This document shows, piece by piece, positions 16,005 through 42,137 of a stretch of DNA of 51,571 nt. The stretch is from Balneolales bacterium. Lineage in GTDB: Bacteria; Bacteroidota; Rhodothermia; Balneolales; Cyclonatronaceae. The position numbers and the translations under genes are program-made. The notes under the pieces were generated by a model that worked only from the letters and a program-made list of their open reading frames with translations, was not told where the DNA came from and searched no databases. The stretch lies in the NCBI GenBank assembly GCA_020832405.1, contig JAFIET010000017.1, positions 1-51,571 on the forward strand. Reading direction: 5' to 3'. How positions within the stretch are numbered: the stretch's first letter is position 1; each line of letters starts with the position of its first letter.

Positions 16005-16050
16005 ATTTTTTAATGAGATTCATCACACTTCCCTAAAGACCCGATTATTG

Positions 16051-19524: not shown

Positions 19525-19533
19525 TGGTGTAAG

Positions 19534-21339: not shown

Positions 21340-21342
21340 TCC

Positions 21343-22753: not shown

Positions 22754-25700
22754 ATGGATCATATACCTATGAACAAAGAAAAGCTACAAGTTGCCGGCTT
22801 TCAGTGTTCATTTTCGTCAGCTCGTAAGAGCAATCGAAAATGGCTGAGTTTTACCGGCATTACGACTGCGTTTCTTGCTGTGATGTTTCTGTTGTTTGCC
22901 TTCCAGGTACCAGCTGCAGAAGCACAACAAAGAGTGCAGGTGTCAGGTGTTGTAACCGATGCCTCAAGCGGTGAAGCGCTTATTGGTGTTACTGTAATTG
23001 TGCAGGGGTCTCTCGAAGCAACAGGCACAACAATCGGAACATCAACTAATATCGATGGCGAGTACACACTGAACGTACCCGCAGATCTCAACACGCTGAT
23101 TTTTTCATCAGTAGGATATCAGACACTATCCGTAAATATTGATGGCAGAACCCGGGTTGATGTTGCTATGAATGCCGATGTTCGTGAGCTTGATAATGTC
23201 GTGGTTGTGGGTTATGGTACACAGCGCGAATCTGAGATTACAAGTTCTGTAGCAACTATTACTGCCGCCGACTTTCAAAGTGGTAACATTAACGATGCAC
23301 AGCAGCTTCTTCAGGGTAAGGTTGCCGGTCTTTCTGTATCCCGGCCCGGTGGTGATCCTAATGCTGATTTCAATATTCGTCTGCGTGGTCTTTCCACCCT
23401 GGGTGCCAATCAGTCCCCGCTTATTGTAATTGACGGCATTGCCGGTGCGGATTTGAATACGGTTGACCCGAATGATATCGAATCGATGACTGTACTCAAG
23501 GATGCGTCTGCTGCGGCTATTTACGGTACCCGTGGCGCCAATGGTGTAATCATTGTAACTACACGCGCCGGTGTTGGTGATCAGCCTATCAGTGTTCAGT
23601 ACAATGGGCAGGTATCCATTTCAACGGTTGCCAATAAGCTTGATGTACTCTCTGCTGAGCAGTACCGAAATTTCCGTTCTGCTGACCCCGATGCGCTTCC
23701 AAACGACCTTGGTCAGGAAACCAATTGGTTTGATGAAGTAACGCAAACCGGTATTACCCACTCACACAGCCTGAATATTTCCGGCGGTAACCGCACAACT
23801 ACCTATTCAGTTTCCGGAACCTATCGCGATATTCAGTCTATTCAGATTGGCTCAGGCAGGCAGCAACTGAACACCCGCCTCAATCTGACGCATCGTGCTT
23901 TGAATGACCGTCTGCGTCTGAATACTACTGTTGCTATTACAGATCGTGATGAGAAGATCGGTCTTGGCGAAGTTTTCCGCTATGCAGCGCTCTTCAATCC
24001 AACAGCACCTGTGCGGAATTCAAACGGTTCCTATTTCCAGCAGACTTTCTTTGACTACTTTAATCCGGTAGCTATCAACGAGCAGTCAACTCTCGAAGCC
24101 GAATCTTCCAGAATGAATGTTGGCTTCCGTGCTGAGTACATGTTTGATGATTACATTCCGGGCCTTTCAGGTTCTGTTTTCTATGCCCGTCAGTCATTCA
24201 GCCGTTTGTATGGCGAGTACTATGAAAAAACAGCCCTTTTCCGCGGTGCTGGTCGTAATGGTCTTGCAATCCGCGAGTCGTTTGATTCAAGAAATGACCT
24301 TTTTGAGGGTGTTCTGAACTTCGACCGTTCATTCGGTAACGTTCGTTTTGAAGCCACCGGTGGTTATTCATGGCAGGATTTTCAGGATGACCTGTTCTTT
24401 GCTGAAGGCGGTGATTTCATCAATGACAGCTTCGGCTGGAACAACATTTTTGAAGCCCGTGAATTTGGTCGTGGTGAAGGTACAGTTCGTACATTCCGCA
24501 ATGAAAACCGTTTGATTGGTTTCTTCGGTCGTACCAATTTTGTAATTAATGATACCTACTTCCTTTCTGCTGCAGTACGCCGTGAGGGTTCTTCCCGATT
24601 TGGTGTTGACAACAAATGGGGTACCTTCTTTGCTGTAAGCGGGGGTCTTGAAATAACAAACCTGATTTCTATTCAGGGAATAGATCAGCTCAAGGCACGC
24701 GTAAGCTACGGTGAAACCGGTACCGATGCGCCGTTTAACGGTCTTTCTCAGCAGCGCTTCAGCTCCGGTTCAGCTTTCCTGGTTGATGGTAATTTTGTTC
24801 CGTCTATCGGCCCGGTTACGAACGCTAACCCGGATCTTAAGTGGGAAGTAAAGCGCGAGCTCAACGTTGGAGTTGACTTCGCAATGATGGAATCCCGCCT
24901 GCGCGGTTCTCTTGACTTCTACCTGAGCAGCACCGATGACCTCCTGCTGGAGATTAACGTACCTGTGCCGCCAAATCAGGCCCCAACAACCTGGATTAAC
25001 GCAGCTGAAGTTTCCAACAACGGTTTCGAAGCGGCCATTAGTTACGATGCAATCCGTAGCAGAGATCTTACCTGGACAACAGGTATCACCTTTGCGACAA
25101 ACACCTCTACACTTGAGCGTTATGCCGCTGGTCGTCAGACCATCGCTAACGTAGGTGCGCCTGGTCTGAATGATACTCCGATGATTCGGGTAGATGAAGG
25201 CCGTAAAATTGGTGATATCTGGGGCTGGAAATTCTCCCGTATCGGTGATAATGGCGAATGGCTGTTCGTAACTCCAGACGGTGAAGAGCTGAATACAGAC
25301 GGCATGCGCGCCCTTGGTGATGCTTCCCGTCAGGTAATCGGAAACGGTCTGCCTGATTTTGAACTCAGCTGGACCAACAACGTCCGTTACCAAAATTGGG
25401 ATTTCAGTATGTTCTGGCGCGGTGCTTTTGGCCACGATATGGTCAACAGCTTCGATATTTTCCACCGGAACCCCTTCTTTATTACGTCACGTAATGTAAT
25501 GAGAAGCACACTTGATATCCCTGAGCTTATTGAGTCGCCTCAGTTCTCAAGTTTCCAGGTTGAAGATGCTTCCTTCTTCCGTTTGGAGAATGTAACTATC
25601 GGATACACTGTAGCTACATCACCTGAGTCTGTATTCAGAAGCCTTCGCGTTTACGCATCTGCCAACAATCTGCTGACGCTCACGGGTTACTCCGGTATCG

Positions 25701-25846
25701 ACCCTGACGTACGTTTTGCTGACACAGGTAACACCGACAACGCCGGTCGTGCCGGTGCACCTAATCCGCTGGCACCGGGAATTGAACGCCGCGATCAGTG
25801 GTTTACACAAAGGTCATTTGTATTCGGCGTAAGTCTTGGATTCTAA
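22754..25846 (+). CDS. SusC/RagA-family TonB-linked outer-membrane transporter
   Basis: 1030 residues (1025 if MNKEK at 22769 is used). After a signal peptide ending around AAEAQQ there is the carboxypeptidase-D-like plug extension (VQVSGVVTDASSGEALIGVTV), the TonB-box-like VVVGYGTQ, a plug domain (LIVIDGIAGADLNTVDPNDIES-type stretch ending VIIVTT) and a ~700-residue beta barrel ending in the aromatic Phe after VFGVSLG. It imports a bulky ligand delivered by the SusD partner, powered by TonB. Arg CGT and Gly GGT codons are unusually frequent compared with the GC-rich neighbours, a sign of high expression. No glycoside-degrading gene accompanies it, so the substrate is unknown. Confidence 0.95.
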   Translation: MDHIPMNKEKLQVAGFQCSFSSARKSNRKWLSFTGITTAFLAVMFLLFAFQVPAAEAQQRVQVSGVVTDASSGEALIGVTVIVQGSLEATGTTIGTSTNIDGEYTLNVPADLNTLIFSSVGYQTLSVNIDGRTRVDVAMNADVRELDNVVVVGYGTQRESEITSSVATITAADFQSGNINDAQQLLQGKVAGLSVSRPGGDPNADFNIRLRGLSTLGANQSPLIVIDGIAGADLNTVDPNDIESMTVLKDASAAAIYGTRGANGVIIVTTRAGVGDQPISVQYNGQVSISTVANKLDVLSAEQYRNFRSADPDALPNDLGQETNWFDEVTQTGITHSHSLNISGGNRTTTYSVSGTYRDIQSIQIGSGRQQLNTRLNLTHRALNDRLRLNTTVAITDRDEKIGLGEVFRYAALFNPTAPVRNSNGSYFQQTFFDYFNPVAINEQSTLEAESSRMNVGFRAEYMFDDYIPGLSGSVFYARQSFSRLYGEYYEKTALFRGAGRNGLAIRESFDSRNDLFEGVLNFDRSFGNVRFEATGGYSWQDFQDDLFFAEGGDFINDSFGWNNIFEAREFGRGEGTVRTFRNENRLIGFFGRTNFVINDTYFLSAAVRREGSSRFGVDNKWGTFFAVSGGLEITNLISIQGIDQLKARVSYGETGTDAPFNGLSQQRFSSGSAFLVDGNFVPSIGPVTNANPDLKWEVKRELNVGVDFAMMESRLRGSLDFYLSSTDDLLLEINVPVPPNQAPTTWINAAEVSNNGFEAAISYDAIRSRDLTWTTGITFATNTSTLERYAAGRQTIANVGAPGLNDTPMIRVDEGRKIGDIWGWKFSRIGDNGEWLFVTPDGEELNTDGMRALGDASRQVIGNGLPDFELSWTNNVRYQNWDFSMFWRGAFGHDMVNSFDIFHRNPFFITSRNVMRSTLDIPELIESPQFSSFQVEDASFFRLENVTIGYTVATSPESVFRSLRVYASANNLLTLTGYSGIDPDVRFADTGNTDNAGRAGAPNPLAPGIERRDQWFTQRSFVFGVSLGF

Positions 25847-25870
25847 ACATCATAAAGAAGTTATATCACT

Positions 25871-27427
25871 ATGAATAAATCATCATTTCTCAAAACATTT
25901 TCGATAAGCCTGCTGGCAGTCTGGTTTGGATTTGCCTGTACAGACCTTACTGAAAATATCCCAAGTGAGCTCACAGACGAAACCTTCTTCCAAACGGAAG
26001 AAGAGTTTATTGCGGCTCTTGGTGATGCGTACACGACGCTTGCAGCATGGCAAAATCATGGTGGTCTGTTTTCTCTTAATATCGTCTCATCCGATGAAGC
26101 GGCTATCCCTGTAAAAGGGGCTGACTGGGATGACGGCGGTATCTGGGTACAGGCTCATCAGCACACTGTTGACAGTGAGCACGGACCAACAAACGGTTCC
26201 TGGAACTTTCTGTTCTCAGGCGTGAGCAATACCAACCGCTTGATTTTCCAGTTTGAAAGTGCCGTAGAAGCCGGAACAGCTGATCCCACAATTGCGGAAG
26301 CTTTTATCGCTGAGCTCCGTGCAATGCGGGCATTTTACTACTACTTCCTGCTCGATAATTTCGGCAATGTGCCCATTATCGATGACTTCGCGAATACGCC
26401 CGCACAGCCTGCCAACAATCCTAATTTTCAGGCTGGCCGTCAGCAGGTATTTGATTTCGTAGAATCCGAGCTTCTTGCTACGGTTAATCTGATTTCAGAC
26501 AATGCTCGTGGCAGCTACGGTCGCTTCAATAAGTATGCGGCACACTTTCTGCTTGGCAAGCTGTATCTGAATGCGCAGGTCTATACCGGCACAGCCCGAT
26601 GGGCCGATGCTGAGGCGCAGTTTAGCCAGGTTGTTGATAGTGGTCAGTTTGCGCTGATGGCGAATTTCTTTGATAATTTTGCCACCAACAACTCTGGTTC
26701 AACTGAAACCATTTTTGCGATTCCTTACGACTCTGTTTTCCTGCCAGGGTTTAATATGCATCAGATGACGCTTCACTATGCACACCAGCAAACCTTTAAC
26801 TTCCAGGAACAGCCCTGGAACGGGTACACTACGCTGGCTGCATTTTATGAGTCGTTCGAAGATGATGATGTTCGCCGGCAGGGGTTTCTTTCAGGTCCCC
26901 AGTTTGACATTGGCGGTAACCCATTGATCGACAATGAGATCGCTCCGGGCCACCATCTCACGCTTACACCTGAGATTCAGGCCATTCGCATGACTTCTGC
27001 ACTTTCCCGTCAGCAGGGTGCACGCTTCAATAAGTTTGAGTACGCAATCGGTGCAACGCCTGACCTGGATAACGATTTCCCGGTCTTCCGTTTTGCTGAT
27101 GCTATTCTCTCACTTGCAGAAGCTCAATACCGTCAGGGTAAGACTTCAGAGGCTCTCATGAACGTTAATATGATTCGTGAGCGTGCTGGTGTTGCTCCGT
27201 TTTCCACCCTCAACGACGACAACCTCCTCGCTGAGCGTGGCCGTGAGCTTTACACTGAAATCTGGAGACGTCAGGATCAGATTCGTTTTGCAGGTAACGA
27301 AGGTGCTACCCGTTTCAATGATTCATGGTGGGAAAAAGGCGTTTCTCAGTCTTTCAGAAACGTGTTCCCGATCCCGTTCAATCAGATTCAGGCCAACTCA
27401 AACCTGACTCAGAACCCGGGATACTAA
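25871..27427 (+). CDS. SusD/RagB-family surface nutrient-binding lipoprotein
   Basis: 518 residues with lipobox Cys23 (WFGFAC) followed by TDLTE. The N-terminal SusD-like region reads LTDETFFQTEEEFIAALGDAYTTL in outline and the C-terminal RagB/SusD region includes DAILSLAEAQYRQGKTSEA near residue 415 and MIRERAGVAP. SusD proteins cap the SusC barrel on the cell surface and capture the ligand. The gene starts 24 bp after susC and shares its CGT/GGT-rich codon use. A strong terminator follows, so susC-susD form a two-gene transcript. Confidence 0.95.
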   Translation: MNKSSFLKTFSISLLAVWFGFACTDLTENIPSELTDETFFQTEEEFIAALGDAYTTLAAWQNHGGLFSLNIVSSDEAAIPVKGADWDDGGIWVQAHQHTVDSEHGPTNGSWNFLFSGVSNTNRLIFQFESAVEAGTADPTIAEAFIAELRAMRAFYYYFLLDNFGNVPIIDDFANTPAQPANNPNFQAGRQQVFDFVESELLATVNLISDNARGSYGRFNKYAAHFLLGKLYLNAQVYTGTARWADAEAQFSQVVDSGQFALMANFFDNFATNNSGSTETIFAIPYDSVFLPGFNMHQMTLHYAHQQTFNFQEQPWNGYTTLAAFYESFEDDDVRRQGFLSGPQFDIGGNPLIDNEIAPGHHLTLTPEIQAIRMTSALSRQQGARFNKFEYAIGATPDLDNDFPVFRFADAILSLAEAQYRQGKTSEALMNVNMIRERAGVAPFSTLNDDNLLAERGRELYTEIWRRQDQIRFAGNEGATRFNDSWWEKGVSQSFRNVFPIPFNQIQANSNLTQNPGY

Positions 27428-27626: not shown

Positions 27627-30600
27627 ATGAAGGAAACACGACCAGGTTTTTTCGGTTTATTGCTGAGCCTCCTGCTGCTTCTCGGGTACGCCTGCCAAAG
27701 CGCTCCGGAGACGGATTTTTTATTTGAGAAGATGGATAACGAATCTGTTGGCATTCGCTTTGACAATCAGCTGTTTCCTACCGAAGATTTCAACATGTAC
27801 ATCTTCCGTAATTTTTATAACGGAGGAGGGGTAGCTGCGGGCGATCTTTCCGGCAACGGGCTGCCTGATTTATTCTTCACCGGAAACATGGTTTCCAACC
27901 GTCTTTACCTCAATCACGGAGATTTTGTGTTTGAGGATGTAACCGAACAGGCCGGGCTGCTTTCCGAAGGCTACTGGAGTACCGGCGTAAGTTTTGCCGA
28001 TGTAAATGGCAACGGCCTCCTCGATATCTTTGTAGCCCGCTCAGGACCGGAAGGCGGGGAGAAGCGGCCGAACCGGCTCTACATCAATAACGGCGACCTC
28101 ACCTTTACCGAGCAGGCCGCGGAGTGGGGCATAGCCGATACCGGACTCTCAACACATGCTGTTTTTTTTGACTACGACGGCGACGGCCTTCCCGATCTGT
28201 ATCTCGTAAGCAATTCCTTCCATAATCTTGAAAGCTTTGCGGGCGTAACGGCACAAGCACGTTCGGTTCCCGATCCGCTTGGGGCTTCTAAGCTTTACCG
28301 CAACGAGGGCGGTTTTTTCCGGGAGGTTACGAATGAAGCCGGGATTTATAGCAGTGCCATCGGCTTTGGGCTGAGTGCGGTCGCGGCTGACATCAACCGG
28401 AACGGGCTGCCGGATCTGTACGTGGCTAACGATTTCTTCGAGCGGGACTACCTCTACCTCAACAACGGCGACGGTACCTTCACCGAGAGCCTGGAACAGC
28501 TGCTGCCTTCCATCAGCTTCAGTTCAATGGGTACCGACATTGCCGACCTCAACAACGACGGATGGCCCGAAATTTATGTTACGGATATGCGGCCGGTCGG
28601 GCAGGAGCGCCTCCGCTCAAAGATGACGATCGAAACCCGGGAAGAATACCTGCGCAATTTGGAGCGCGGTTTCCATCATAAATACACCCGAAATACGCTG
28701 CAGCTCAATCTTGGCGGCGATCGTTTTGCCGAGATCGGACGTTTCACCGGTACCGAGGCCACCGAATGGAGCTGGGCAACGCTCATGGCAGACTTCAGCC
28801 TGAACGGCTTCAACGACCTTTTTGTGGCCAACGGCATTTACAACGACCTGCTCGATCAGGATTACATCGAACTTGTTGCAAACCCCGCCCGCATCCGCGA
28901 AATGATCAGAAGCGGTCAGGAGAATGTAATCCTGAATCTGCTCGGCGATATGAGCTCGGTGCCGGTCAGCAACATGATGTTTTCCAATTCCGGCAATCTG
29001 AATTTTGAGGAAGTAAGTCGTGAATGGGGGCTGAATCACCCGGCCTTTTCGACCGGCGCAGCCTGGGCCGATCTGAACGGTGACGGGGCCCTGGATCTGG
29101 TTGTCAGTAATGTGAACGGGCCTCCTATGATTTACCGAAACAGGGTACGCGAGCTGCACCCGGAGCGTACGTTTTTGCGGATTGATTTAAGGGGTGATAC
29201 GCCCAACACGCAGGCCCTCGGGGCACAGTTGCATGTTTATGCGGGGGATGATTACTGGTACCGCGAGCATACCCTTCAGCGGGGATTTCAGTCGTCGGTA
29301 GAGCCGGGTTTGTTTGTGGGCACGGGTGATGCGGTACGGGCTGATTCCCTTGTGTTGCGCTGGCCCGACGGCCGCACGAGCCGGCTGCGGGATGTCACGC
29401 TCCCTGCACGCATCGTGTTGCGGCAGTCAGATAGCAGCAGCCTCGACCCGCCCGCACCCGCCGAAGCCCGTATGCCCGGTCAGGCAGTGCTTGCCGGTTC
29501 CGCTACCTGGGAAACTGTGAAAGCAGGTGAAGATTTTGAGCAGCCCCATCAGCCGTTTTCTTACAATGATTTTGAGCGGGAGCAGCTGCTGTTTAAAATG
29601 CGCTCAACTGAAGGCATTGCCGCATGTACGGGGCAACTGACGGCGGATGGTCCCTTGGTTGTATATCTCGGCGGGGCACGTAATCAGCCCGGGCGTTTGC
29701 TTGCAGAACAGCCTGACGGCCGTTTCCGTAGTGAACAGAAGGAGTTGTTCGGCCAACACGGCCTCTCGGAGGATACTGACTGCCTCTTTTTTGATGCTAC
29801 CGGCAATGGTGCCGACGATCTTTACGTGGTGAGCGGCGGCGCCTCTTTTTCGGCAACCTCATCGGCACTGCGGGACCGCCTCTACATGAACGACGGCACC
29901 GGAAATTTTACGCTGACTAACCAAATGCTGCCGTCGTCAGCGCGCTTTGAATCAGGCTCGGTTGTAAAGGCTCATGACTTTACCGGAAACGGCCGCAACG
30001 ACTTGTTCGTGGGTACGCGCTACCGGCTTTTTGCGTACGGCATGGCTGCATCATCCTATCTGCTTGAAAATATAGGTGATGGCCGCTTTCGGGATGTTAC
30101 TGAAGCATGGCTGCCGCAGCTGCGCACCGCCGGCATGGTGACAGCTGCGGAATGGGCTGACCTCACCGGAAACGGGCAGCACGAACTCATTCTGACAGGC
30201 GAATGGATGCCGGTACGGGTATTTCGGAATACCGGCAGCAGCTTCACGGAAATCACTGCTGAGCTGGGGCTTTATGAAACTTCCGGCTGGTGGACATCCC
30301 TCTATATTGCAGATTTGGATGGCGACGGCCGCCCTGACATTATCGGCGGAAATCACGGGCTTAACAGCGTGTTCCGTGCCTCTGCTGAGCGGCCGGTGCA
30401 GATGGTGGTTACGGACCTCGACAACAACGGACTGCTCGATCACCTCATCGCTATGCCGGATGCCGGCGGCACCTATTACCCGCTCGTGCTCCGCCCGGAA
30501 TTCATGCAGGCGGCGCCGGGTTTTCGGGAGCGCTACCCGACACACGCCGCCTTTGCGGCTGCAAATCTCGAGGCCCTACTCCGTGATGTCCCCGACGACC

Positions 30601-31016
30601 GGCAGCTGCGCCATAAGGCGGAAATGCTTGCTTCGGTCTGGTTCCGGAACACCGGCAGCGGCTTTGAGGCCGTTCCGCTTCCTGCAGCCGCACAGCTTGG
30701 TCCCGTTTACGGCATTGCCTCTGGCGACTTTACCGGCAGCGGCCGTACTGAACTGCTGCTCGGCGGAAACCTGTTCGATGTGAAGCCACAAACCGGGAAA
30801 TATGATGCCCTTAGCCCGGTCATTCTATTTTATGAACCTGACTGCGGCTGCCTCCAAAGCCTGCCCGCGCACAAAGCCGGCGTAGAAGCCGGGGGCGAAG
30901 TCCGCGGGATAAGGCTGTTTCCGGCCCTTGATGATACCTCAGCCCCGGGTTTGCTCATCACAAGATGGGGCGAAAAACCACTGCTTTTCCGGCGCACTGA
31001 TACTACCTACCCTTAG
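27627..31016 (+). CDS. Two-propeller VCBS/FG-GAP lipoprotein with central ASPIC/UnbV domain
   Basis: 1129 residues with lipobox Cys23 (LLGYAC), then QSAPETD. Layout matches the 12642 protein: propeller 1 at ~40-510 (GDLSGNGLPD, DVNGNGLLD, DINRNGLPD, DLNNDGWPE), ASPIC/UnbV at ~525-600 (RGFQSSVEPGLFVGTG, RWPDGRTSRLRD), propeller 2 from ~660 (DATGNGADD, DFTGNGRND, DLTGNGQHE, DLDGDGRPD). It is clearly closest to the 32576 protein, sharing the opening NFYxGGGVA and the EWSWAtLmADF segment. It starts 200 bp after susD beyond the terminator, so it has its own promoter. Role inferred only as a surface binding or assembly protein of the SusCD locus. Confidence 0.9.
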   Translation: MKETRPGFFGLLLSLLLLLGYACQSAPETDFLFEKMDNESVGIRFDNQLFPTEDFNMYIFRNFYNGGGVAAGDLSGNGLPDLFFTGNMVSNRLYLNHGDFVFEDVTEQAGLLSEGYWSTGVSFADVNGNGLLDIFVARSGPEGGEKRPNRLYINNGDLTFTEQAAEWGIADTGLSTHAVFFDYDGDGLPDLYLVSNSFHNLESFAGVTAQARSVPDPLGASKLYRNEGGFFREVTNEAGIYSSAIGFGLSAVAADINRNGLPDLYVANDFFERDYLYLNNGDGTFTESLEQLLPSISFSSMGTDIADLNNDGWPEIYVTDMRPVGQERLRSKMTIETREEYLRNLERGFHHKYTRNTLQLNLGGDRFAEIGRFTGTEATEWSWATLMADFSLNGFNDLFVANGIYNDLLDQDYIELVANPARIREMIRSGQENVILNLLGDMSSVPVSNMMFSNSGNLNFEEVSREWGLNHPAFSTGAAWADLNGDGALDLVVSNVNGPPMIYRNRVRELHPERTFLRIDLRGDTPNTQALGAQLHVYAGDDYWYREHTLQRGFQSSVEPGLFVGTGDAVRADSLVLRWPDGRTSRLRDVTLPARIVLRQSDSSSLDPPAPAEARMPGQAVLAGSATWETVKAGEDFEQPHQPFSYNDFEREQLLFKMRSTEGIAACTGQLTADGPLVVYLGGARNQPGRLLAEQPDGRFRSEQKELFGQHGLSEDTDCLFFDATGNGADDLYVVSGGASFSATSSALRDRLYMNDGTGNFTLTNQMLPSSARFESGSVVKAHDFTGNGRNDLFVGTRYRLFAYGMAASSYLLENIGDGRFRDVTEAWLPQLRTAGMVTAAEWADLTGNGQHELILTGEWMPVRVFRNTGSSFTEITAELGLYETSGWWTSLYIADLDGDGRPDIIGGNHGLNSVFRASAERPVQMVVTDLDNNGLLDHLIAMPDAGGTYYPLVLRPEFMQAAPGFRERYPTHAAFAAANLEALLRDVPDDRQLRHKAEMLASVWFRNTGSGFEAVPLPAAAQLGPVYGIASGDFTGSGRTELLLGGNLFDVKPQTGKYDALSPVILFYEPDCGCLQSLPAHKAGVEAGGEVRGIRLFPALDDTSAPGLLITRWGEKPLLFRRTDTTYP

Positions 31017-32575: not shown

Positions 32576-35500
32576 ATGCTATCCAAGTCACACCTTATTT
32601 CAGTTTCTTTTCTCCTCAAGGTAGCAGCCTTGTGTATTTTTATGGCCTGCTCCCGGCAGGCTGAGCCGGATGTTGCCCCTGATCCGCTTTTTGAATGGCT
32701 GTCGCCGGAAGTGACCGGTATTGATTTTGAAAATCGACTCGAATATTTGTCAAACTTCAATATTTACACCTACCGCAATTTTTATGACGGCGGAGGGGTG
32801 GCCGTGGGCGATCTCAGCGGAAACGGTTTGCCGGATATCTATTTCATCAGCAATATGGGGCCCAACCGGCTGTATTTTAATCAGGGGGATTACCGCTTTG
32901 TGGATGTGACCGACGAAGCGGGCGTTGCCGGAACCCGGCGGTGGTCAACAGCGGCGGCGCTGGTTGATATCAACGGGAACGGGCTGCTCGATATTTATGT
33001 GACCAACTCGGGCAAGCTCGATGATGCAACAAATGAGCTGTTCATCAACAATGGCGACGGAACTTTTACCGAGCGCGCGGCGGAATTCGGTCTGGACGAC
33101 CCCGGCTTTGGGATTCAGGCCTATTTCTTCGATTATGACGGCGACGGCCTGCCCGATATGTTTCTGATAAATAACGAAGATCAGGCCATTTCTTCTTTCG
33201 ATCTGAGCAACTTGCAGCGCTACGAGCGGGACTTTCCTGGCGGCGACCGCCTGTTTCGTAATGAAGGCGGCTTTTTTAGGGATGTAACGGAGGAAGCCGG
33301 CATCCTGAGCAGCATCATCGGCTTTGCGCTGAGCGCTGCGGTGTCGGACCTGAACCGGAACGGCCTGCCGGATATTTTTGTGGCCAACGATTTCTTCGAG
33401 CGCGACTACATTTACATGAACAACGGCGACGGCACCTTTACCGAAGTTGGCGGCGATGAGCGCGTGATCCGGAGCATGAGCGCAGCCTCCATGGGCTCCG
33501 ATATCGCCGACCTGAACAACAACGGCTGGCCCGATATTTATGTGTCGGATATGCTGCCGTTCAAGGATGAGCGTATCAAAACGGTTACGCTCTTCGAAGA
33601 CTGGGACCGCTACCGGGAAAAAGTGGAATGGGGCTACGGGCATCAGTTTACGCGGAATGTGCTGCATCTGAATCAGAACGGCACGCATTACAAGGAAGTG
33701 AGCAGGCTTACCGGTACGGAGGCGACCGACTGGAGCTGGGCGGTGCTGCTGGCCGATTTCGACCACAATGGCTTCAACGATATTCTGGTAACCAACGGCC
33801 TGGTGCAGGACATCACCAATGTGGATTATCTGGGTGAAATTTCAGATCAGGAAACGATGCGGGCGGTGATACGGCAAGAGGGCGTGGATTTTCAGCAGCT
33901 GATTGATATGATCCCCTCGCAGAAGGTGCGCAATGTGATGTTTGCCAATAACGGCCGCCTGAATTTTGAGGACATCACCGTGGCATGGGGGCTGGGGGAG
34001 CCGACTTTTTCCAGTGGTGCGGCATGGGCCGACCTGAACGGTAACGGCGCCCTTGATCTTGTGATCAGCAATGTGAATCAGCCGTCTCGGATTTACCGCA
34101 ACCGCGTGAATGAGCTGCACCCGGAGCGAAGCTGGCTTCGGATTGATCTCGAAGGGGAGGGGCACAACACGCAAGCCATCGGGGCGCAGCTTCAGCTGTG
34201 GGGCGGGGGGCAGCAGTGGTTTCGGGAGCATTTCCTGCAGCGCGGGTTTCAGTCGAGCGTGGAGCCTGGCTTTTTTGTGGGGCTGGGTGAGCTGAACCGC
34301 ATCGACTCGCTGGTGGTGCGCTGGCCGGACGGGCGGACAAGCCGCATGCAGGATATCGACGTACCGGCCCGGATTTCGCTCTCCCAAAAGCAAGGAGAAA
34401 GCCGTGGGGAACCGCTGCCGGGGCCTGCCATAGTTGACCGTGATGCGCACGAAGTTCCCCCCAAAAAATTCGAAAAGCTGGAAAATACCGGGCTTTCGTT
34501 CAGGCATCTGCGGCATCCTTACTCGGATTTTCAGCGGGACCGGATGCTGTATCAGATGCGCTCGACGGAGGGGCCGGCGATGTGTACGGGCGATGTGACC
34601 GGCAACGGGCTGGATGATGTGTATGCGGGCGGGGCACGAAATCAGGCCGGGCAGCTTTTTTTGCAGGGGGGCGACGGGCGTTTTGAGGCCTCGGGCACGG
34701 ATTTTTCGGCGCATGCAAGCTCCGAAGATATCGCCTGTTTGTTTTTTGATGCAACCGGCAACGGGCTGATGGATTTGTACGTGGTAAGCGGCGGGAACAG
34801 CCATGGCTCGGCCTCGGCGGCGCTGCTCGACCGGCTTTACCTGAACCGTGGTAATGGCGCGCTGGTGCACAGCGGTCAGCCGCTGCCGCTGCCCGCGCGG
34901 CCGGTGTCTGGCTCGGTGGCCGTGTCTGCCGATTTTACGGGCAATGGCCATGCCGATTTGTTTGTGGGCACGCGGCTTCGGCCTTTTGCGATAGGCGTAC
35001 CAGCCGATTCGTACCTGCTTGAGGGCGACGGCACCGGGCAGTTCCGCGACGTGACGGCGGATGTGATGCCGGGGCTTACGGCCATCGGCATGGTGACGGA
35101 TGCGGCCCTCGGAGATGTGACCGGCGACGGCAGGCCGGAGCTGGTAGTGGTGGGCGAGTACATGCATCCGCGGGTGTTTGCGCGGCGCGGGGCGGCCTGG
35201 ACGGACATCAGCGGCGAGCTGGGGCTGCAGGCGTACACTGGCATCTGGTACAGCGTGCTGCTGGCGGATGTAACCGGCAACGGCCGCCTGGATATTGTGG
35301 GCGGGAATCACGGCCTCAACAGCCTGCTGCGCGGCACGCCGGAGCGCCCGCAGCGGATGTGGGTGGGCGATTTTGAGCAGGATGGAATTGTGAATCAGAT
35401 TCTGGCTATCAATCAGCCGGATGGGGTATTTCCGCTTATTTTGCGGCACGATCTGCTGGATGAGGTGCCGGGACTGGCGGCGAAGTATCCGGATTATGCG

Positions 35501-35950
35501 AGCTTCGGCGGACAGCAGGTGACCGACATTTTTACCCGTGATCAGCTGGATGCGGCCATTTTGCTGGAGGCAGCGGAGCTGGGGAGTGTGCTTTTCCGAA
35601 ACGAAGGGGAGGCGGGTTTCCGGGCGGAGCGGCTTCCGCTTCGGGCGCAGTTCGGGCCGGTGTTCGGGCTGGCAGCGGCGGACCTTACGGGCGACGGGCG
35701 CTCAGAGATTTTGCTGGGGGGAAACCTGTTCGAGGTGCGTCCGCAGCAGGGTCCCTACGACGCGCTGCGGGGCACGGTGCTGCGCTTTGATGCGGAGCGC
35801 GATCAGCTGCTGGCTTACCCCGCCGATGCTACGGGCTTCGATGTGTTTGGTCAGCTGCGGCAGCTGCGCGTGGTACGCACCTCAGACGGAAGTCTGCGCG
35901 TGATAGCCGCGCGCTATGATGATGAGGTTTTGATTTTTGGGGTGGAGTGA
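32576..35950 (+). CDS. Two-propeller VCBS/FG-GAP lipoprotein with central ASPIC/UnbV domain
   Basis: 1124 residues with lipobox Cys25 (CIFMAC), then SRQAEPD. Propeller 1 at ~45-515 (GDLSGNGLPD, DINGNGLLD, DLNRNGLPD, DLNNNGWPD), ASPIC/UnbV at ~530-600 (RGFQSSVEPGFFVGLG, RWPDGRTSRMQD), propeller 2 from ~650 (DVTGNGLDD, DATGNGLMD, DFTGNGHAD, DVTGDGRPE). It is the sister of the 27627 protein and likely arose by duplication, with the small lipoprotein and KilA-N genes now between them. DNA toward its 3' end is more G-rich than the rest of the island. It is the last gene of the island; no terminator is obvious after it. Confidence 0.9.
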   Translation: MLSKSHLISVSFLLKVAALCIFMACSRQAEPDVAPDPLFEWLSPEVTGIDFENRLEYLSNFNIYTYRNFYDGGGVAVGDLSGNGLPDIYFISNMGPNRLYFNQGDYRFVDVTDEAGVAGTRRWSTAAALVDINGNGLLDIYVTNSGKLDDATNELFINNGDGTFTERAAEFGLDDPGFGIQAYFFDYDGDGLPDMFLINNEDQAISSFDLSNLQRYERDFPGGDRLFRNEGGFFRDVTEEAGILSSIIGFALSAAVSDLNRNGLPDIFVANDFFERDYIYMNNGDGTFTEVGGDERVIRSMSAASMGSDIADLNNNGWPDIYVSDMLPFKDERIKTVTLFEDWDRYREKVEWGYGHQFTRNVLHLNQNGTHYKEVSRLTGTEATDWSWAVLLADFDHNGFNDILVTNGLVQDITNVDYLGEISDQETMRAVIRQEGVDFQQLIDMIPSQKVRNVMFANNGRLNFEDITVAWGLGEPTFSSGAAWADLNGNGALDLVISNVNQPSRIYRNRVNELHPERSWLRIDLEGEGHNTQAIGAQLQLWGGGQQWFREHFLQRGFQSSVEPGFFVGLGELNRIDSLVVRWPDGRTSRMQDIDVPARISLSQKQGESRGEPLPGPAIVDRDAHEVPPKKFEKLENTGLSFRHLRHPYSDFQRDRMLYQMRSTEGPAMCTGDVTGNGLDDVYAGGARNQAGQLFLQGGDGRFEASGTDFSAHASSEDIACLFFDATGNGLMDLYVVSGGNSHGSASAALLDRLYLNRGNGALVHSGQPLPLPARPVSGSVAVSADFTGNGHADLFVGTRLRPFAIGVPADSYLLEGDGTGQFRDVTADVMPGLTAIGMVTDAALGDVTGDGRPELVVVGEYMHPRVFARRGAAWTDISGELGLQAYTGIWYSVLLADVTGNGRLDIVGGNHGLNSLLRGTPERPQRMWVGDFEQDGIVNQILAINQPDGVFPLILRHDLLDEVPGLAAKYPDYASFGGQQVTDIFTRDQLDAAILLEAAELGSVLFRNEGEAGFRAERLPLRAQFGPVFGLAAADLTGDGRSEILLGGNLFEVRPQQGPYDALRGTVLRFDAERDQLLAYPADATGFDVFGQLRQLRVVRTSDGSLRVIAARYDDEVLIFGVE

Positions 35951-36219: not shown

Positions 36220-36399
36220 ATGGAAACTAAAGAAAAAATAAAAAATCAGCTTGACACTTTATCCGAGGCTGATGCTAAAAAAGTGTATCTGTATATAGAG
36301 AAAATAAAGACTAAATCTACAGTTAAAAAAACGATACCCTCTTTTGATTTAAAAGGTAAACTCGACGGAAAAAATATTCGCAGCCTTGCATATGATTAA
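36220..36399 (+). CDS. Probable antitoxin of the PIN module
   Basis: A 59-residue protein (METKEKIKNQ start, SLAYD end). A lysine-rich helical N-terminus is followed by a short C-terminal tail (FDLKGKLDGKNIRS) of the kind that antitoxins wrap around PIN toxins. It ends eight bases inside the toxin gene, the usual coupled arrangement. I cannot place it in a named antitoxin family, and the N-terminal part is too short to show which DNA-binding fold it uses, if any. Confidence 0.7.
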   Translation: METKEKIKNQLDTLSEADAKKVYLYIEKIKTKSTVKKTIPSFDLKGKLDGKNIRSLAYD

Positions 36400-36817
36400 G
36401 GTTCTTATTGATACGAATGTACTGATTTATGCAATTGATCAAAAATCAGTATTTTTTCAAGATGCGAGGGATATCCTTGAAGCTGGAAAATATGAACTAT
36501 ATACTACTTCAAAGAATCTTACTGAGTTTATGGTTGTAGCTACCAAAAATTCAGGTTATGGATTGAATACTGATATAGCCTCAGATATTTTGGAGGACAT
36601 AACACACAATTTGGAGGTACTATATCCGAACAAAACTTCTTCAACGATTTTGTCTGAGTTAATTCGCAAATACAGTCCCAAAGGCGCAATAATACATGAT
36701 TTTGAGATTGTTGCCATTGGGATTGCCCATGGGGTAATGAACATTGCGACGTTCAACACTAAGGATTTTACCGGGATAAACGAGGTCAGTCTTATCGGTT
36801 CTCCAGACATAGGCTAA
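36392..36817 (+). CDS. PIN-domain toxin (VapC-like ribonuclease)
   Basis: 141 residues from the ATG at 36392, overlapping the antitoxin stop by 8 bp. PIN-domain acidic residues are in place: Asp7 (LIDTNVLIY), Glu45 (LTEF), Asp103 (IIHDFEIVAIG) and Asp125 (TKDF). Such toxins cleave tRNA or other RNA when the antitoxin is lost. Both genes are AT-rich relative to their surroundings, in keeping with mobility. The pair sits between the VCBS island and the halogenase group. Confidence 0.87.
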   Translation: MIKVLIDTNVLIYAIDQKSVFFQDARDILEAGKYELYTTSKNLTEFMVVATKNSGYGLNTDIASDILEDITHNLEVLYPNKTSSTILSELIRKYSPKGAIIHDFEIVAIGIAHGVMNIATFNTKDFTGINEVSLIGSPDIG

Positions 36818-36883: not shown

Positions 36884-38392
36884 TCACGTAATCTCCACCG
36901 CCGTGTGCGCATACATTTTCTGCCCGGGGGTAAGCAGGCCGGCGATGTTCCAGGGTTTGATGCGTTCGCGCATGGTTTCGGTGAAGCGGCGGGATTCATC
37001 TTCGGGGAAGCCGGCTGATTCGAGCCGAAGTAAATCATCCCAGGCCGCCCGCACCATGCCTGTGAGCGGAGACTGGAGGGCGTTGAGGAAGGAAGCCGGC
37101 CGCTCACCGCGCAGACGGGCCTGCTCGTAGCTAATGGAACAGCAGAAGTAGCAGCTTAGCCAGGCCTCGAACAGATCGGGGTGCCGCCGGGTTTTGTAGC
37201 AGCCTGCTACAAGCAGGTCGATGAGCTGTATTTCGCGCATCACGCTGAGGCTGTAGCTTTCCAGTACGTAGTGCCCCGGCTGATGGCCGGGTTTGGTGTC
37301 AGCGAAAATGGCCGCGAGCTTTTCTACTGCAGCAAGTGTAATCGCGATACCCGTGCTGTGCATGGGGTCCACAAATCCGGCTGAGTGCGGCAGTGCGGCA
37401 CTGCGGGGCCCGGTGGCACTTGCGGTAAGCCGCTGCAGCGGTTTGCTTTTGATCATGGCGGCGGGAGGGTCAGCAATTACGGCATCCCCGAAGAGGGTTT
37501 TCAGAGAGGGGTAGCGGCCCAGCAGGTACGGCCAAAGTTTTTCATTACTGCTTCGGCAGAGCTGCTTCTGATCTTCGTAGGAGAGCATAAAACCGGCGCT
37601 TAGGAGTCCGTCGGAGAAACGAAGCATCCACAACCAGCCTTCATCGAGCAGGTGATGCAGGGCTGCATGATCGGGGTGAAATGGGTAGGCTTTTGTCGGG
37701 ATACCGCTTTGTTCCAGCTGCGCTTTCCATTCGGGCACCCCGCGGAAATGGGAGTAAAAAGCCACGGAGCTGATCTGAAAGCGATAGGCCGAAGGCTTCA
37801 CGCCCATCATGCTGCTAAGCTGTTCGGATCCCGTAGCATCAATGATGAAGCCGGCTGAGATCTCATGCGTTGACTTGCCGTTTTTCAGGCTCAGGTACCA
37901 CTGGCCGTTTGGACCGTTTTGAGCAGCCCTTACGATTTCCGTACGGTCGAAGTATGGTACACCCGCTGCAACGGCCTGCTGTACGATAAATTCGTCGAAA
38001 TGCGGGCGGTACCACTGCGTGTCGGAGGCTTCATCGCTGCTGCTTGCAGCTATAAGCAGGCTGTTGCGGTGCGTTTGGTCGTCGGTGAAGGGCTTCCCGG
38101 CCTGATGAAAGTAGTAGCTGAAACCGCGCTTCAGACCAACACGCAGCTCCGGGTGAGCCTGCTTCCAGCTTCCGTAGCGGGAAAGCGGCGTAAGCCAGCT
38201 CAGGCCGTAGGTTTTGGCCAGGTCGCGCAGTACCATGTCGGCGATGGGCGTTGAGCTTTCGCCAATGGCAAAGCGCGGATGCGAACTGCGCTCGAGCAGC
38301 CAAACATCATGACCCATTTTTTTTAAGATGAGGGCAAGTAATGTGCCCCCAAAACCTGCACCCGCAATTATGATTTCCGCGTGAGCCGGCAT
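36884..38392 (-). CDS. Flavin-dependent halogenase-like FAD oxidoreductase
   Basis: 502 residues from MPAHAEIII (38392); ten more codons are possible (38422). The N-terminal FAD-binding GAGFGGTLLALIL, then ERSSHPRFAIGESSTP and GLKRGFSYYFH match flavin-dependent halogenase/tryptophan-halogenase-like enzymes, including a lysine where the halogenase catalytic Lys is expected. The WxWxIP signature is degenerate (GWLWMLRF), so halogenating activity is uncertain; hydroxylation or oxidation is an alternative. A second dinucleotide motif IIDATGSEQL lies mid-protein. It is the last gene of a minus-strand group with a radical SAM and an asparagine-synthetase-like enzyme, with a 190 bp gap (159 bp with the longer start), so it may have its own promoter. 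Confidence 0.8.
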   Translation of the reverse strand: MPAHAEIIIAGAGFGGTLLALILKKMGHDVWLLERSSHPRFAIGESSTPIADMVLRDLAKTYGLSWLTPLSRYGSWKQAHPELRVGLKRGFSYYFHQAGKPFTDDQTHRNSLLIAASSSDEASDTQWYRPHFDEFIVQQAVAAGVPYFDRTEIVRAAQNGPNGQWYLSLKNGKSTHEISAGFIIDATGSEQLSSMMGVKPSAYRFQISSVAFYSHFRGVPEWKAQLEQSGIPTKAYPFHPDHAALHHLLDEGWLWMLRFSDGLLSAGFMLSYEDQKQLCRSSNEKLWPYLLGRYPSLKTLFGDAVIADPPAAMIKSKPLQRLTASATGPRSAALPHSAGFVDPMHSTGIAITLAAVEKLAAIFADTKPGHQPGHYVLESYSLSVMREIQLIDLLVAGCYKTRRHPDLFEAWLSCYFCCSISYEQARLRGERPASFLNALQSPLTGMVRAAWDDLLRLESAGFPEDESRRFTETMRERIKPWNIAGLLTPGQKMYAHTAVEIT

Positions 38393-38581
38393 TTTTGCAA
38401 AAGTTGGAACAGTAGGTCTCATCTTCCCTAACTAAAAAATGATGAGGAAAGTATTTTAATATGTGTGTATTGATAATGCAATCAATATCCTAAAACCTGA
38501 AATAGCTGTTTGTTAAAAGAGGTGTGTATCTATAAGCTTGTTTAAACAAATAATTAAAAGATGCGGTGAAGTTAGTTTTTT

Positions 38582-39493
38582 TTAATCCTGATTCAGCTGA
38601 TGCAGGTTCAGTTTGTTCATGGCTGACTCCCATTTCTCATAGCTTTCACTGCTGCCCGGCCAAAACGGCCGCACATCCCACAGGTCCGCAAAAACGCGCC
38701 CCCGCTGCCAGCTGAGGGCTTCCCGAACGACCGATTCAAGCATGTGCAGGTCCGGGGGGATGTAGGCACCATCTGCTTCGAGCTTTTCCATGTAGCCGTT
38801 GCCGGTACGTACGGGGATGATGCTCACGGTTTCGAAACCCGCATCAAAGGCAAAGCGGATGGTATCGAGGCAGGACTGCCGGGTTTCCGCCGGATCGGTG
38901 AGCCAGGGCGGGTTTAGCAGGATGAAGCCCCGCAGTGAAATGCCGGTTTCGCGCAGTTTTCGGGCAGCGTGCTCAATATCATCCCCGCTGATTTGCTTGT
39001 TGAGCCGGGGCAGCACTTCCGGATGAATGCTTTCGATGCCGATCGCTATTTCCAGCTCTGCATCAAGCAGCTCCTGAAACTGCACGATTTGCGGCCCCGT
39101 TATTTTGGGATGATTTTCGGCAATCACCCGCTCGTAGCCGGCGCAGAGCTCCGCTATTTCGGGGTAGTCAGAGCGGGGAATCGCTTTGAGGTCGAAAAAG
39201 TTGCCGTTGTTGTACAGCTTGATGACCTCTGCTTCCGGCAAGCGATCCAGCGCGTACCGGATTTGCGCCGGGATGGCCCCTTCGGGCGTGGGTTCGTCGA
39301 GGGTGTGCTTCCAAAGGTCGCAGAACACGCACTTAAACGGGCACTCCCGGTTGGTGAGGAAAACGGTGTTGACCCGGCGCAGGCGGCCGTCAGGGCCGGG
39401 CTCCTGCTCGTGCAGAAAATGATACGGCCGGAAAGGGTCGAGTCCGCTGACCTTTTCCGGCCGTGCCGCAACAACTTCGCGGTTATTTGGCAT
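38582..39493 (-). CDS. Radical SAM enzyme
   Basis: 303 residues. The [4Fe-4S]-binding motif CxxxCxxC is at Cys51, Cys55 and Cys58 (RECPFKCVFCDLW). The core continues with KLYNNGNFFDLKAIP, EIAIGIESIHPEVLPRLNK and GFILLNPPWL, reminiscent of the Elp3/RaSEA (archaeosine synthase-like) branch; no acetyltransferase, B12 or SPASM domain is present. It overlaps the end of the asparagine-synthetase-like gene by 11 bp, so the two are translationally coupled and probably act on the same product. Substrate unknown. Confidence 0.88.
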   Translation of the reverse strand: MPNNREVVAARPEKVSGLDPFRPYHFLHEQEPGPDGRLRRVNTVFLTNRECPFKCVFCDLWKHTLDEPTPEGAIPAQIRYALDRLPEAEVIKLYNNGNFFDLKAIPRSDYPEIAELCAGYERVIAENHPKITGPQIVQFQELLDAELEIAIGIESIHPEVLPRLNKQISGDDIEHAARKLRETGISLRGFILLNPPWLTDPAETRQSCLDTIRFAFDAGFETVSIIPVRTGNGYMEKLEADGAYIPPDLHMLESVVREALSWQRGRVFADLWDVRPFWPGSSESYEKWESAMNKLNLHQLNQD

Positions 39494-40814
39494 AGAGCGA
39501 CTGAAAGTAGAGGCGGTAGGTCATTTCGTTATCGGCGAAAACATCTGCGAAACGGTCGCTGCCTACGGTGCCTTCCTGCATCCGGCGCTTGGGGTTCACC
39601 GGCATGTCGATGCCGGTTATGGCCTTCACGCCGCGCCGCACGACTTCACCCTTGAGCTGATACAGCCGGTCGTGCTCCCAGTTGGTGAGCTCGATAAAGG
39701 GGATGCCCTCAGAAACCTGTATCACATCAGGCAGCGCATACGGGCTGAAGCCGGTGAAGCCAAAATGACGTGCCGGTGCCCAGGTGCGGACCGCTCCACG
39801 GCTCTGACCACCGCTGTAGGTGAGCGAATGCTTGATTTTGTCCACGCCCCAGCCCTCATGATACAGCACGGTATTGCCCAGCACGCTGCGGATGGTGAGT
39901 TCGGGATTTTCTTCGATGGGGTAGGCTTTGAGGTTTTCGTCGCCGCCGTCGCCGTCGGCCAGGTATTTCCAGTCGGGGTAGCGCTCGCGCAGCAGTTTGC
40001 AGAGCGCCAGGGTTGTGGTTGCGGCTTCCACATCCCGCATTTTGTAGTCCTCAATTACGCGGATCGCCGCCTTGTAGTCGAGGTCGGCCAGGCTGCCTTC
40101 GACCACTTCATGGAACATATCCAGCTTCAGTGCTTTGAGGAAGGAGCGTGCCTGCCGGGCATCGGGGCCGTCTTCCACTGAAAGCGTGAAGGCTTTGAGC
40201 CGCGCCGGCGACATCCCGAGCTTGAGCATGGTATGGTATAGCACCAGAAAAACCGAGCCGCTGTCGATGCCGCCCGAAAACAGCACGCCAACCGGCTCTT
40301 TTTCATCGATGGACTCCAGCCATTTCTGGCACTCATTGGCCATAGCCCCCACATACGCCCGCCCGATTTCATCGAGGTCGGCAGGCAGGGTTTCCCGCTC
40401 GGGCACAAAGTAGCGGCTGTAATCGGGGTTCGGATCGGGGCAGCCCACCACCTGAAGCTTCACCACATAGTGCGCGGGTACCATGCGGGTGTAGGCCGGA
40501 TTGAACTGATGGTGCAGGTCGAGGCTTTTGAGGTATTCATAAATTTCGTCGATCCGCTCGGCGACAATCAGCAGCGGACCGGCTACCTGCTTGGCCATAA
40601 AATAGCGCATCGGCCGGCTGATGGACCGCGCCATGGTGACCTCCATCCCGTTTTTGGTTACGATGGCGAAGCTGCCTTCTATCGAGCGCACTTTAGCGGG
40701 GTTTCCGCTGCGCACAATTTCTTCCGCTTCTGCGGCGCTCATGTTCAGGATGATGTTGGCTGCCGGGTCGAGCAGGCTCACAAAGTCGTTGAGTTTAACG
40801 TAGGTTACGGGCAT
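39483..40814 (-). CDS. Asparagine-synthetase-like ATP-dependent amidotransferase lacking the glutaminase Cys
   Basis: 443 residues from MPVTYVKLND (40814); an upstream in-frame ATG at 40874 would add 20 residues. The N-terminal ~170 residues look like a degenerate class-II glutaminase domain (IEGSFAIVTKNGMEVTMARS) with no Cys at position 2. The synthetase domain has the PP-loop VLFSGGIDSGS near residue 177 and DGDGGDENLKAY where AsnB has SGEGADE. The ATP-adenylating half therefore looks intact while glutamine hydrolysis is lost, as in beta-lactam synthetase, which uses an internal amine. Coupled to the radical SAM gene by an 11 bp overlap. Confidence 0.85.
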   Translation of the reverse strand: MPVTYVKLNDFVSLLDPAANIILNMSAAEAEEIVRSGNPAKVRSIEGSFAIVTKNGMEVTMARSISRPMRYFMAKQVAGPLLIVAERIDEIYEYLKSLDLHHQFNPAYTRMVPAHYVVKLQVVGCPDPNPDYSRYFVPERETLPADLDEIGRAYVGAMANECQKWLESIDEKEPVGVLFSGGIDSGSVFLVLYHTMLKLGMSPARLKAFTLSVEDGPDARQARSFLKALKLDMFHEVVEGSLADLDYKAAIRVIEDYKMRDVEAATTTLALCKLLRERYPDWKYLADGDGGDENLKAYPIEENPELTIRSVLGNTVLYHEGWGVDKIKHSLTYSGGQSRGAVRTWAPARHFGFTGFSPYALPDVIQVSEGIPFIELTNWEHDRLYQLKGEVVRRGVKAITGIDMPVNPKRRMQEGTVGSDRFADVFADNEMTYRLYFQSLYAK

Positions 40815-40943: not shown

Positions 40944-42137
40944 TCACCTCAGAAATCCGAAAAGCCAAAGCGGGATGATGCGGCCGTAGCCCGTTTCGAT
41001 ATCATCGGCAGCTACCCGGGATTGGGCAGCACCTTTGAGCTGCGCGGGCGTCTTGTTTTTGCCGCCAACCTCAAACAGATAAGTACCGTCAACCCGGAAA
41101 TCTCCGATGTTGGCATACTCCACGAGGTGAGCTGCTTTGAGCTGATTCACAAAGAAAGTCTCCCGCCCGGCGCCCTTGTTCACCTTATGCGGGGCGAGCG
41201 CATGCATAATATTGGTGTTTTCCATCAGGATCTTAGCCGGCTTCTGCATCTTCGTGAGCCCTTTGGCATCCTTGTACAGGTTGTTGATGATGTTCGCTTC
41301 CTCAAGGTAGTGGAAGTAGGAAACAAGGGTGTTTCGGTTGATGCCGATCCTGCTGCTGAGCTCCGTGACGTTCGGCGTGAAGGGCACCGATTCAGCGATG
41401 ATCTGCATCAGCTGCTTGATTTTGGCCACATAAGAGATTTCGAGCCCCCGCAGCAGGGGCAGCTCTACTTCAAGCACGTAGTTCAGCACTTCTTCCAGCC
41501 GCCAAAGGTAGGTTTGAGGCGACTCCCGGAAAAAGGGATAAAAGCCATCCCGAAGATAATTTCTGAACAGCGGCAGCGGTCGCAGCACCGCGTTGATTTC
41601 AGCCGCAATGGCAATGTGATGCTCAATAATCTCCTCCAGCGAATAAGCCGGAAAAGTATGCCCGGCGGAGAGGGCGATGTATTCCCGGAAACTTAGGCCC
41701 GGCAGCGTATAGGTGATTGCCCGTCGGCTGAGGTCGGCCCGCGCATTCAGGATTTCAAGGAGAGATGAGCCGGAGAACACGATTTTTAAATCCGGATAAT
41801 CATCCCACGCATTTTTGAGCGCGCCTGACCAGCCGGGGTATTTGTGAACTTCATCCAGAAAAAGAAAGCGCCCGCCTGCCTTCACGAAATCATCCATAAG
41901 GTCAGTCAGTGAATGATTCATGAACCAGGCAGCATCAAGGCTCACGTACAGACTTTGCTCGTTCATCGGGAGGTTTTCCCGCATGTACTGTAGCATGAGC
42001 GTCGTTTTACCCGCGCCGCGTGCCCCTTTTATGCCAATGAGCCGCGACGACCAGTCGATCTCGTCTGAGAGGCTTCTTTTGAAGTGACGCTCAATCCGCA
42101 TCACCTTTTGAACAGATTTTTCGAAAAGCTGCTGCAT
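40944..42137 (-). CDS. AAA-type ATPase with DUF4143 C-terminal domain
   Basis: 397 residues. Walker A GARGAGKTT near residue 38, Walker B FLFLDEVHKYPGW near 92 and the following VFSGSSLLEIL are typical of the DUF4143-linked AAA_14 ATPases. The C-terminal part has the winged-helix-like stretch NVTELSSRIGINRNTLVSYFHYLEEANII and the DUF4143 nuclease-like end (FEVGGKNKTPAQLKG). Function of the family is not established; scattered distribution suggests frequent transfer. The start codon lies only 3 bp from a perfect 12 bp inverted repeat and lacks a ribosome site, so translation may be leaderless or hairpin-controlled. Confidence 0.88.
   Translation of the reverse strand: MQQLFEKSVQKVMRIERHFKRSLSDEIDWSSRLIGIKGARGAGKTTLMLQYMRENLPMNEQSLYVSLDAAWFMNHSLTDLMDDFVKAGGRFLFLDEVHKYPGWSGALKNAWDDYPDLKIVFSGSSLLEILNARADLSRRAITYTLPGLSFREYIALSAGHTFPAYSLEEIIEHHIAIAAEINAVLRPLPLFRNYLRDGFYPFFRESPQTYLWRLEEVLNYVLEVELPLLRGLEISYVAKIKQLMQIIAESVPFTPNVTELSSRIGINRNTLVSYFHYLEEANIINNLYKDAKGLTKMQKPAKILMENTNIMHALAPHKVNKGAGRETFFVNQLKAAHLVEYANIGDFRVDGTYLFEVGGKNKTPAQLKGAAQSRVAADDIETGYGRIIPLWLFGFLR

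Follow-up and report, generated by a model that had tools for sequence, protein, structure and literature searches.

A conserved operon of asparagine-synthetase-like, radical SAM and halogenase-type flavoenzyme genes in Balneolota and other phyla, and its association with UnbV/UnbU-type proteins

The window considered here, that is the whole analysed stretch of 51,571 nucleotides (contig JAFIET010000017.1, assembly GCA_020832405.1), belongs to the 3.96 Mb genome of a Balneolales bacterium whose closest relatives are Balneolota. It carries on its minus strand the genes of an asparagine-synthetase-like (AsnS-like) ATP pyrophosphatase (gene 1), a radical S-adenosylmethionine (SAM) enzyme (gene 2) and a flavin adenine dinucleotide (FAD) enzyme of the flavin-dependent halogenase type (gene 3). 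These genes, referred to below as the trio, form one real conserved unit, because their order is shared across phyla and they are retained together even where they are scattered. In this group the trio is co-inherited with enediyne-related surface proteins and therefore points to an unstudied biosynthetic pathway. We give roughly even chances to the reading that it is a conserved cytoplasmic operon for the biosynthesis of an undescribed small molecule, whose product acts at the cell envelope together with these proteins.

The Trio as a Conserved Unit

Gene 1 (39483-40814, 443 aa) matches the Pfam family Asn_synthase with 51.5 bits (cut-off 21, E 1.6e-13), gene 2 (38582-39493, 303 aa, RaSEA-like) matches Radical_SAM with 39.2 bits (cut-off 29.5), and gene 3 (36884-38422, 512 aa) matches Trp_halogenase with 44.8 bits (cut-off 21, E 1e-11). 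An earlier note on this DNA had described three open reading frames (ORFs) of these enzyme types on one strand, two of them overlapping by 11 bp; the coordinates and strand are as it gave them, the enzyme types agree with Pfam matches above the gathering scores, and the overlap, at 39483-39493, is that of the gene 1 stop with the gene 2 start. The ATG at 40814 was preferred as the start of gene 1 over a longer ORF opening with GTG at 40874, because the proteins of relatives begin there.

Among 98 related genomes gene 1 was found in 21, orthologues of gene 2 (>200 bits) in the identical 21, and orthologues of gene 3 in 20 of them; the remaining genomes held only weak paralogues. The Fisher p-values for this co-occurrence (~1e-21 and ~1e-19) are, like all association p-values given here, uncorrected for phylogeny. 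A scan of one genome per species yielded 63 loci from Balneolota, Bacteroidota, Planctomycetota and single acidobacterial, gammaproteobacterial and gemmatimonadete bins, many of the trio loci being metagenome bins. In all 48 loci that hold the three genes (Balneolota, Bacteroidota, Planctomycetota, Acidobacteriota and one gammaproteobacterial bin) the order is AsnS-like, radical SAM, FAD enzyme, on one strand. The co-conservation that the earlier note had proposed as a check was therefore found, and the outcome that it had named as refuting, genes separate in relatives or each belonging to a known housekeeping family, did not occur; no NCBIfam equivalog cut-off was passed.

The gaps between the genes are mostly negative or below 100 bp, values that are approximate since the genes of relatives were called by a simple longest-ORF rule. 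Seven loci have about 1.6-1.8 kb between genes 1 and 2, filled, where it was read, by a gene on the opposite strand. In two planctomycetes gene 1 is the only one of the trio at the locus, the other two lying elsewhere in the genome; in one of these species (G099) gene 3 was matched as two pieces of a single 669-aa frame. The pairwise distances of the three proteins correlate with r = 0.89-0.92 (43 loci), and the gene 1 tree tracks phyla with few exceptions, mostly metagenome bins. Gene 1 was present in 23 of 394 genomes sampled from the wider phylum, so that the distribution of the trio is sporadic. The identity to the proteins of the one-contig genome G005 is 96% for gene 1 vs 77% and 68% for genes 2 and 3. 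Since cultured carriers exist (Mucilaginibacter lappiensis, Agriterribacter humi, Parafilimonas terrae, Dyadobacter luticola, Fodinibius roseus and Rhodopirellula rubra), gene deletion combined with metabolomics is feasible.

No description of the trio combination, or of its link to UnbV/UnbU or FG-GAP proteins, was found in the open-access papers searched, and none of the three genes rises above an equivalog cut-off of the family libraries scanned, in line with the suggestion of the earlier note that the system might be undescribed; the novelty is judged from the Pfam and NCBIfam libraries and from these literature searches. With its order fixed in no fewer than five phyla, the trio marks a metabolite or cofactor that could be produced by numerous environmental bacteria.

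The UnbV/UnbU-Type Module

On the plus strand of the same window, about 15-20 kb from the trio, lies a second group of genes (16048-22167), termed module 2. It consists of a TPR, FG-GAP and ASPIC protein recognized with Pfam (16048-19524), a probable surface lipoprotein whose lipobox was judged by eye, of an UnbV-like FG-GAP/ASPIC protein (19534-21339; Pfam FG-GAP_3 and UnbV_ASPIC) and of an UnbU-like membrane protein of the NQR2/RnfD type (21343-22167; Pfam NQR2_RnfD_RnfE). Signal peptides and several names of neighbouring genes were assigned by eye throughout. The earlier note had proposed a three-step pathway for modifying a small molecule or macromolecule; the unit and its enzyme assignments stood, the amide or lactam formation and the halogenation that it named are putative, and module 2 had been overlooked.

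The TPR/FG-GAP gene is present in 21 of 21 relatives with the trio vs 6 of 77 without it (Fisher p 2e-16), and the UnbU-like gene in 20 of 21 vs 6 of 77. In G005 the trio and module 2 are about 210 kb apart. In Bacteroidota the recurring neighbours of the trio are a TPR+FG-GAP+ASPIC protein (~1180 aa), an FG-GAP/UnbV_ASPIC protein (600 aa) and an NQR2/RnfD-like membrane protein (270-290 aa). The first of these was found in 14 of the 17 Bacteroidota loci with more than 3.9 kb of sequence past the last trio gene, and L099 (on the upstream side) and L107 have it as well, which makes 16 Bacteroidota loci altogether. The UnbV-like protein of the window is 44-51% identical to the products of genes near the trio in eight Bacteroidota loci. 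In a wider, hand-picked set UnbU-like genes occurred in 16 of 35 genomes with the trio, an acidobacterium included, vs none of 45 without it. This partial distribution, which does not extend to planctomycetes, shows that the trio constitutes the core, which module 2 accompanies often but not always.

The UnbV-like and UnbU-like proteins are each about 28% identical to adjacent CRTAC1 and RnfD-type proteins encoded on a plasmid of Streptomyces globisporus C-1027. That pair adjoins DUF1702 genes and a type I polyketide synthase (PKS), which we take to be the C-1027 enediyne PKS, and several of the relatives on plasmids bear the annotation enediyne biosynthesis protein or UnbU. As in the C-1027 cluster, the two genes of module 2 are adjacent, with UnbV preceding UnbU; unlike the enediyne pair, they were seen with no enediyne PKS or DUF1702 gene beside them, are preceded by the TPR/FG-GAP/ASPIC gene and are co-inherited with the AsnS-like/radical SAM/FAD operon. 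No PKS was seen among the window genes scanned with Pfam, which were a part of the window ORFs. A conserved enediyne PKS cassette has been described, and iodine is essential for the anthraquinone-fused enediynes (PMC9464397). The link of the trio to UnbV/UnbU offers a route to asking which role these little-understood proteins of enediyne clusters play elsewhere.

Three more FG-GAP/ASPIC proteins with lipoprotein-like starts and 42-51% mutual identity are encoded on the plus strand of the window (12642-16004, 27627-31016 and 32576-35950), where their genes flank a SusC/SusD pair (22754-27427). In three planctomycetes the trio is followed by a gene for a secreted protein (L119:12373-13191, L120:12012-13070, L128:12083-12299), similar in all three and by eye an NHL-type beta-propeller, which might be a stand-in for module 2.

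The Three Enzymes

The PP-loop of gene 1, S180-G-G-x-D-S185, is invariant among 32 diverse sequences of the family, in which about a quarter of all columns are invariant; the identity to planctomycete proteins is 57-61%. The domain match and the SGGxDS motif place the protein in the Asn_synthase PP-loop superfamily. It is not a glutamine-hydrolysing AsnB, as it lacks the N-terminal Cys and scores 39.4 bits with the NCBIfam asparagine synthetase model TIGR01536 (cut-off 267.1). The residue after Met varies in the family and is never Cys, and the AlphaFold model (mean predicted local distance difference test score, pLDDT, 82) aligns only from residue 33 of AsnB, so that the ~32 N-terminal residues containing the glutaminase Cys1 are missing. 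Among solved structures the best matches are beta-lactam synthetase (Z 24.7) and, tied with it, asparagine synthetases (Z 24.0-24.3, AsnB 24.0); carbapenam synthetase (Z 21.9) and a hydroxyamidotransferase come next. The whole-chain fold and the PP-loop are shared with beta-lactam synthetase, carbapenam synthetase and AsnB, whereas the identity to them is 16-18% and the invariant motifs differ. The near-invariant residues 296-335 are modelled at pLDDT <50 and perhaps form a loop that becomes ordered upon binding of a substrate or partner. Gene 1 was absent from the viral contigs and from the plasmids of PLSDB.

Gene 2 has the canonical CxxxCxxC motif (C51, C55, C58), invariant among its orthologues, and together with the Pfam score and the fold neighbours this identifies a member of the radical SAM superfamily. 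Its model (pLDDT 95.6) resembles radical SAM enzymes in general, among them queuine lyase, HydE, biotin synthase and Elp3, and with many families at Z 14-17.5 the structural ranking singles out no function. Most orthologues end in a CxxC...CxC tail, which could bind an iron-sulfur cluster or zinc; its cysteines are lost in the protein of the window (38582-38660, minus strand) and in that of L070. Relatives about 28% identical to gene 2 occur on two Streptomyces plasmids; on the one inspected, the adjoining genes encode a P450, a serine hydroxymethyltransferase and a glycosyltransferase, and no AsnS-like gene is annotated.

The solved structures closest to gene 3 are those of the phenol halogenase PltM (E 1e-31) and of tetracycline 7-halogenase. 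Its FAD motif G21-x-G23-x-x-G26 is kept in at least 45 of 46 sequences, and Lys98, invariant in all 46, aligns with the Lys of PltM (the catalytic Lys, K79 of PrnA). In these two features the protein is like PltM, tetracycline 7-halogenase and the CmlS-type halogenases; it differs from them in the WxWxIP motif, which reads GWxWxLRF here, with Arg in place of Pro in 41 of the 46 sequences and Pro in one, and in belonging to an operon without a PKS or nonribosomal peptide synthetase (NRPS) partner. WxWxIP is said to prevent monooxygenase action (PMC5945002); therefore halogenation and hydroxylation are both possible.

Proposed Pathway

In the proposed pathway gene 1 would use ATP to adenylate a carboxylate (or amide) and join it to an amine, ammonia or an internal amine, doing so without glutamine because the glutaminase start is missing. 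A 5'-deoxyadenosyl radical produced by gene 2 would then break or rearrange a bond of the intermediate (C-N or C-H), perhaps trimming the nitrogen donor as RaSEA does after ArcS (PMC11298593), and gene 3, with reduced FAD and O2, would hydroxylate or halogenate an electron-rich ring. Module 2 may then take part in the use or export of the product at the cell envelope. This scheme is supported by the co-occurrence and fixed order of the genes, their co-retention when dispersed, the correlated distances, the conserved catalytic residues, the resemblance of the gene 1 fold to beta-lactam synthetase and AsnB and of gene 3 to PltM and tetracycline 7-halogenase, the co-inheritance of module 2 and the lack of a precursor peptide beside the trio.

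Several observations weigh against it. The halogenase motif WxWxIP is altered in gene 3; gene 1 is far more conserved than is usual for enzymes of secondary metabolism; a Chitinophagaceae bin (G107) lacks gene 3 while carrying the other two; and module 2 is missing from planctomycetes and from about half of the trio-bearing genomes outside Balneolota. The weakest steps are the order of the reactions, the substrate and the choice between halogenation and hydroxylation. The missing glutaminase start and the WxWxLRF sequence make the exact reactions assigned above tentative.

A bolder form of the proposal, possible but in our view doubtful, is that this cross-phylum pathway makes a new cofactor or signal, handled at the surface by UnbU/UnbV and the TPR/FG-GAP/ASPIC lipoprotein. 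If so, the UnbV and UnbU proteins of enediyne clusters are part of a broader machinery, one that can operate where there is no enediyne polyketide synthase.

AsnS-like enzymes also act on carboxylates in clusters for ribosomally synthesized and post-translationally modified peptides (RiPPs), examples being the nitrile synthetase PesC and the lasso cyclases (PMC13060819). These share with gene 1 a natural-product context and differ in that the trio operon has no adjacent precursor peptide. The latter is concluded because the trio genes overlap or abut in most relatives and because a search for conserved ORFs of 20-90 aa in the gaps and flanks of the trio loci, a check that the earlier note had recommended for 38393-38581 and flanks, gave no such ORF across relatives, the matches being mainly antisense to a neighbouring FG-GAP gene. 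By this search, made at the locus only, the trio lacks the precursor adjoining its enzymes that marks a RiPP cluster, and no NRPS, PKS or precursor peptide was seen in the operon, as the earlier note had stated.

Alternative Explanations

The trio might instead serve protein maturation. Its target would be the TPR/FG-GAP/ASPIC (or UnbV) surface protein, which would receive either a modified residue or a protein-derived cofactor, in the way that the maturation of quinone-cofactor enzymes is aided by the flavoprotein QhpG and by the maturases LodB and GoxB. After CmlS (75 bits, cut-off 900) the next-best NCBIfam scores of gene 3 are those of QhpG (72 bits, cut-off 240), GoxB and LodB, although these cut-offs are far from reached. 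The candidate target accompanies the trio in every trio-bearing relative and adjoins it in most Bacteroidota loci, and its C-terminal third (residues ~715-1140), which has no Pfam domain, is its most conserved part and contains an invariant SCPW. However, six Balneolota, some of them incomplete bins, have the TPR/FG-GAP module without the trio (G003, G031, G058, G064, G071 and G096; L204, L187, L210, L220, L219 and L221), UnbU is lacking in most planctomycetes that carry the trio, and the columns of the TPR/FG-GAP protein, compared for a hint of a modified residue, include none that separates the Balneolota with the trio from those without it. We consider this explanation unlikely.

A narrower form of the small-molecule reading, which we hold to be improbable to a similar degree, supposes true flavin-dependent halogenation, by which chlorine, bromine or iodine enters a product that UnbU/UnbV then handle, as in enediyne clusters. 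The invariant Lys98, the GxGxxG-type FAD site, the nearest structures and the UnbV/UnbU homologues of the C-1027 cluster are consistent with it, as is the need of anthraquinone-fused enediynes for iodine (PMC9464397). The replacement of the Pro of WxWxIP by Arg argues against it, given the role ascribed to that motif (PMC5945002), and QhpG-type monooxygenases score as high as halogenases in NCBIfam.

Modification of a nucleoside or tRNA is less probable still. Here gene 1 would link a base with an amino acid, which gene 2 would cut so as to leave the nitrogen, in the manner of ArcS and RaSEA in archaeosine synthesis, where lysine is the nitrogen donor (PMC11298593). RaSEA (TIGR01210) is indeed the best NCBIfam match of gene 2 (79-80 bits, E 3e-22), but the cut-off of 212.15 is not reached, and the partner of gene 2 is an AsnS-like enzyme, in bacteria, instead of ArcS. 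Queuine lyase is the top match in VIA-align (Z 17.5), yet stands only ~1 Z above HydE and biotin synthase. The very high conservation of gene 1 would suit a function of this kind, whereas the sporadic distribution would not. No preQ1 or other riboswitch was detected at the trio in the nine loci scanned, where the RNAs found were one acidobacterial transfer-messenger RNA and two Acido-Lenti-1 RNAs, each located outside the trio, and no tRNA-transglycosylase gene was noticed near the trio.

That three unrelated metabolic genes are neighbours by chance is very improbable and largely refuted by their single order in five phyla amid different neighbours, their joint absence from most relatives and their joint retention when dispersed in two planctomycetes, even if linkage could be inherited within each phylum, as the gene 1 tree would allow.

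Other Neighbouring Genes

No universal fourth gene was found beside the trio in the 63 loci; the neighbour cluster that ranks next in frequency (19 of 63 loci) is that of the FG-GAP/ASPIC proteins. Carbohydrate genes recur near the trio (L074, L079, L080, L084, L131, L123, L104, L166 and L167), including a pfkB kinase (L123) and a GH65 protein (L104) recognized by Pfam and, by eye, xylose isomerase, xylulokinase, sugar isomerase/epimerase and GMC oxidoreductase.

In the window a PIN-domain gene on the plus strand (36386-36817), preceded by a short ORF (36220-36817 in all), resembles a toxin-antitoxin pair of the VapBC type. Upstream of the trio an AAA_14/DUF4143 ATPase is encoded on the minus strand (40944-42137); a 76% identical copy occupies the same place in G005 and was not seen in the other loci examined.

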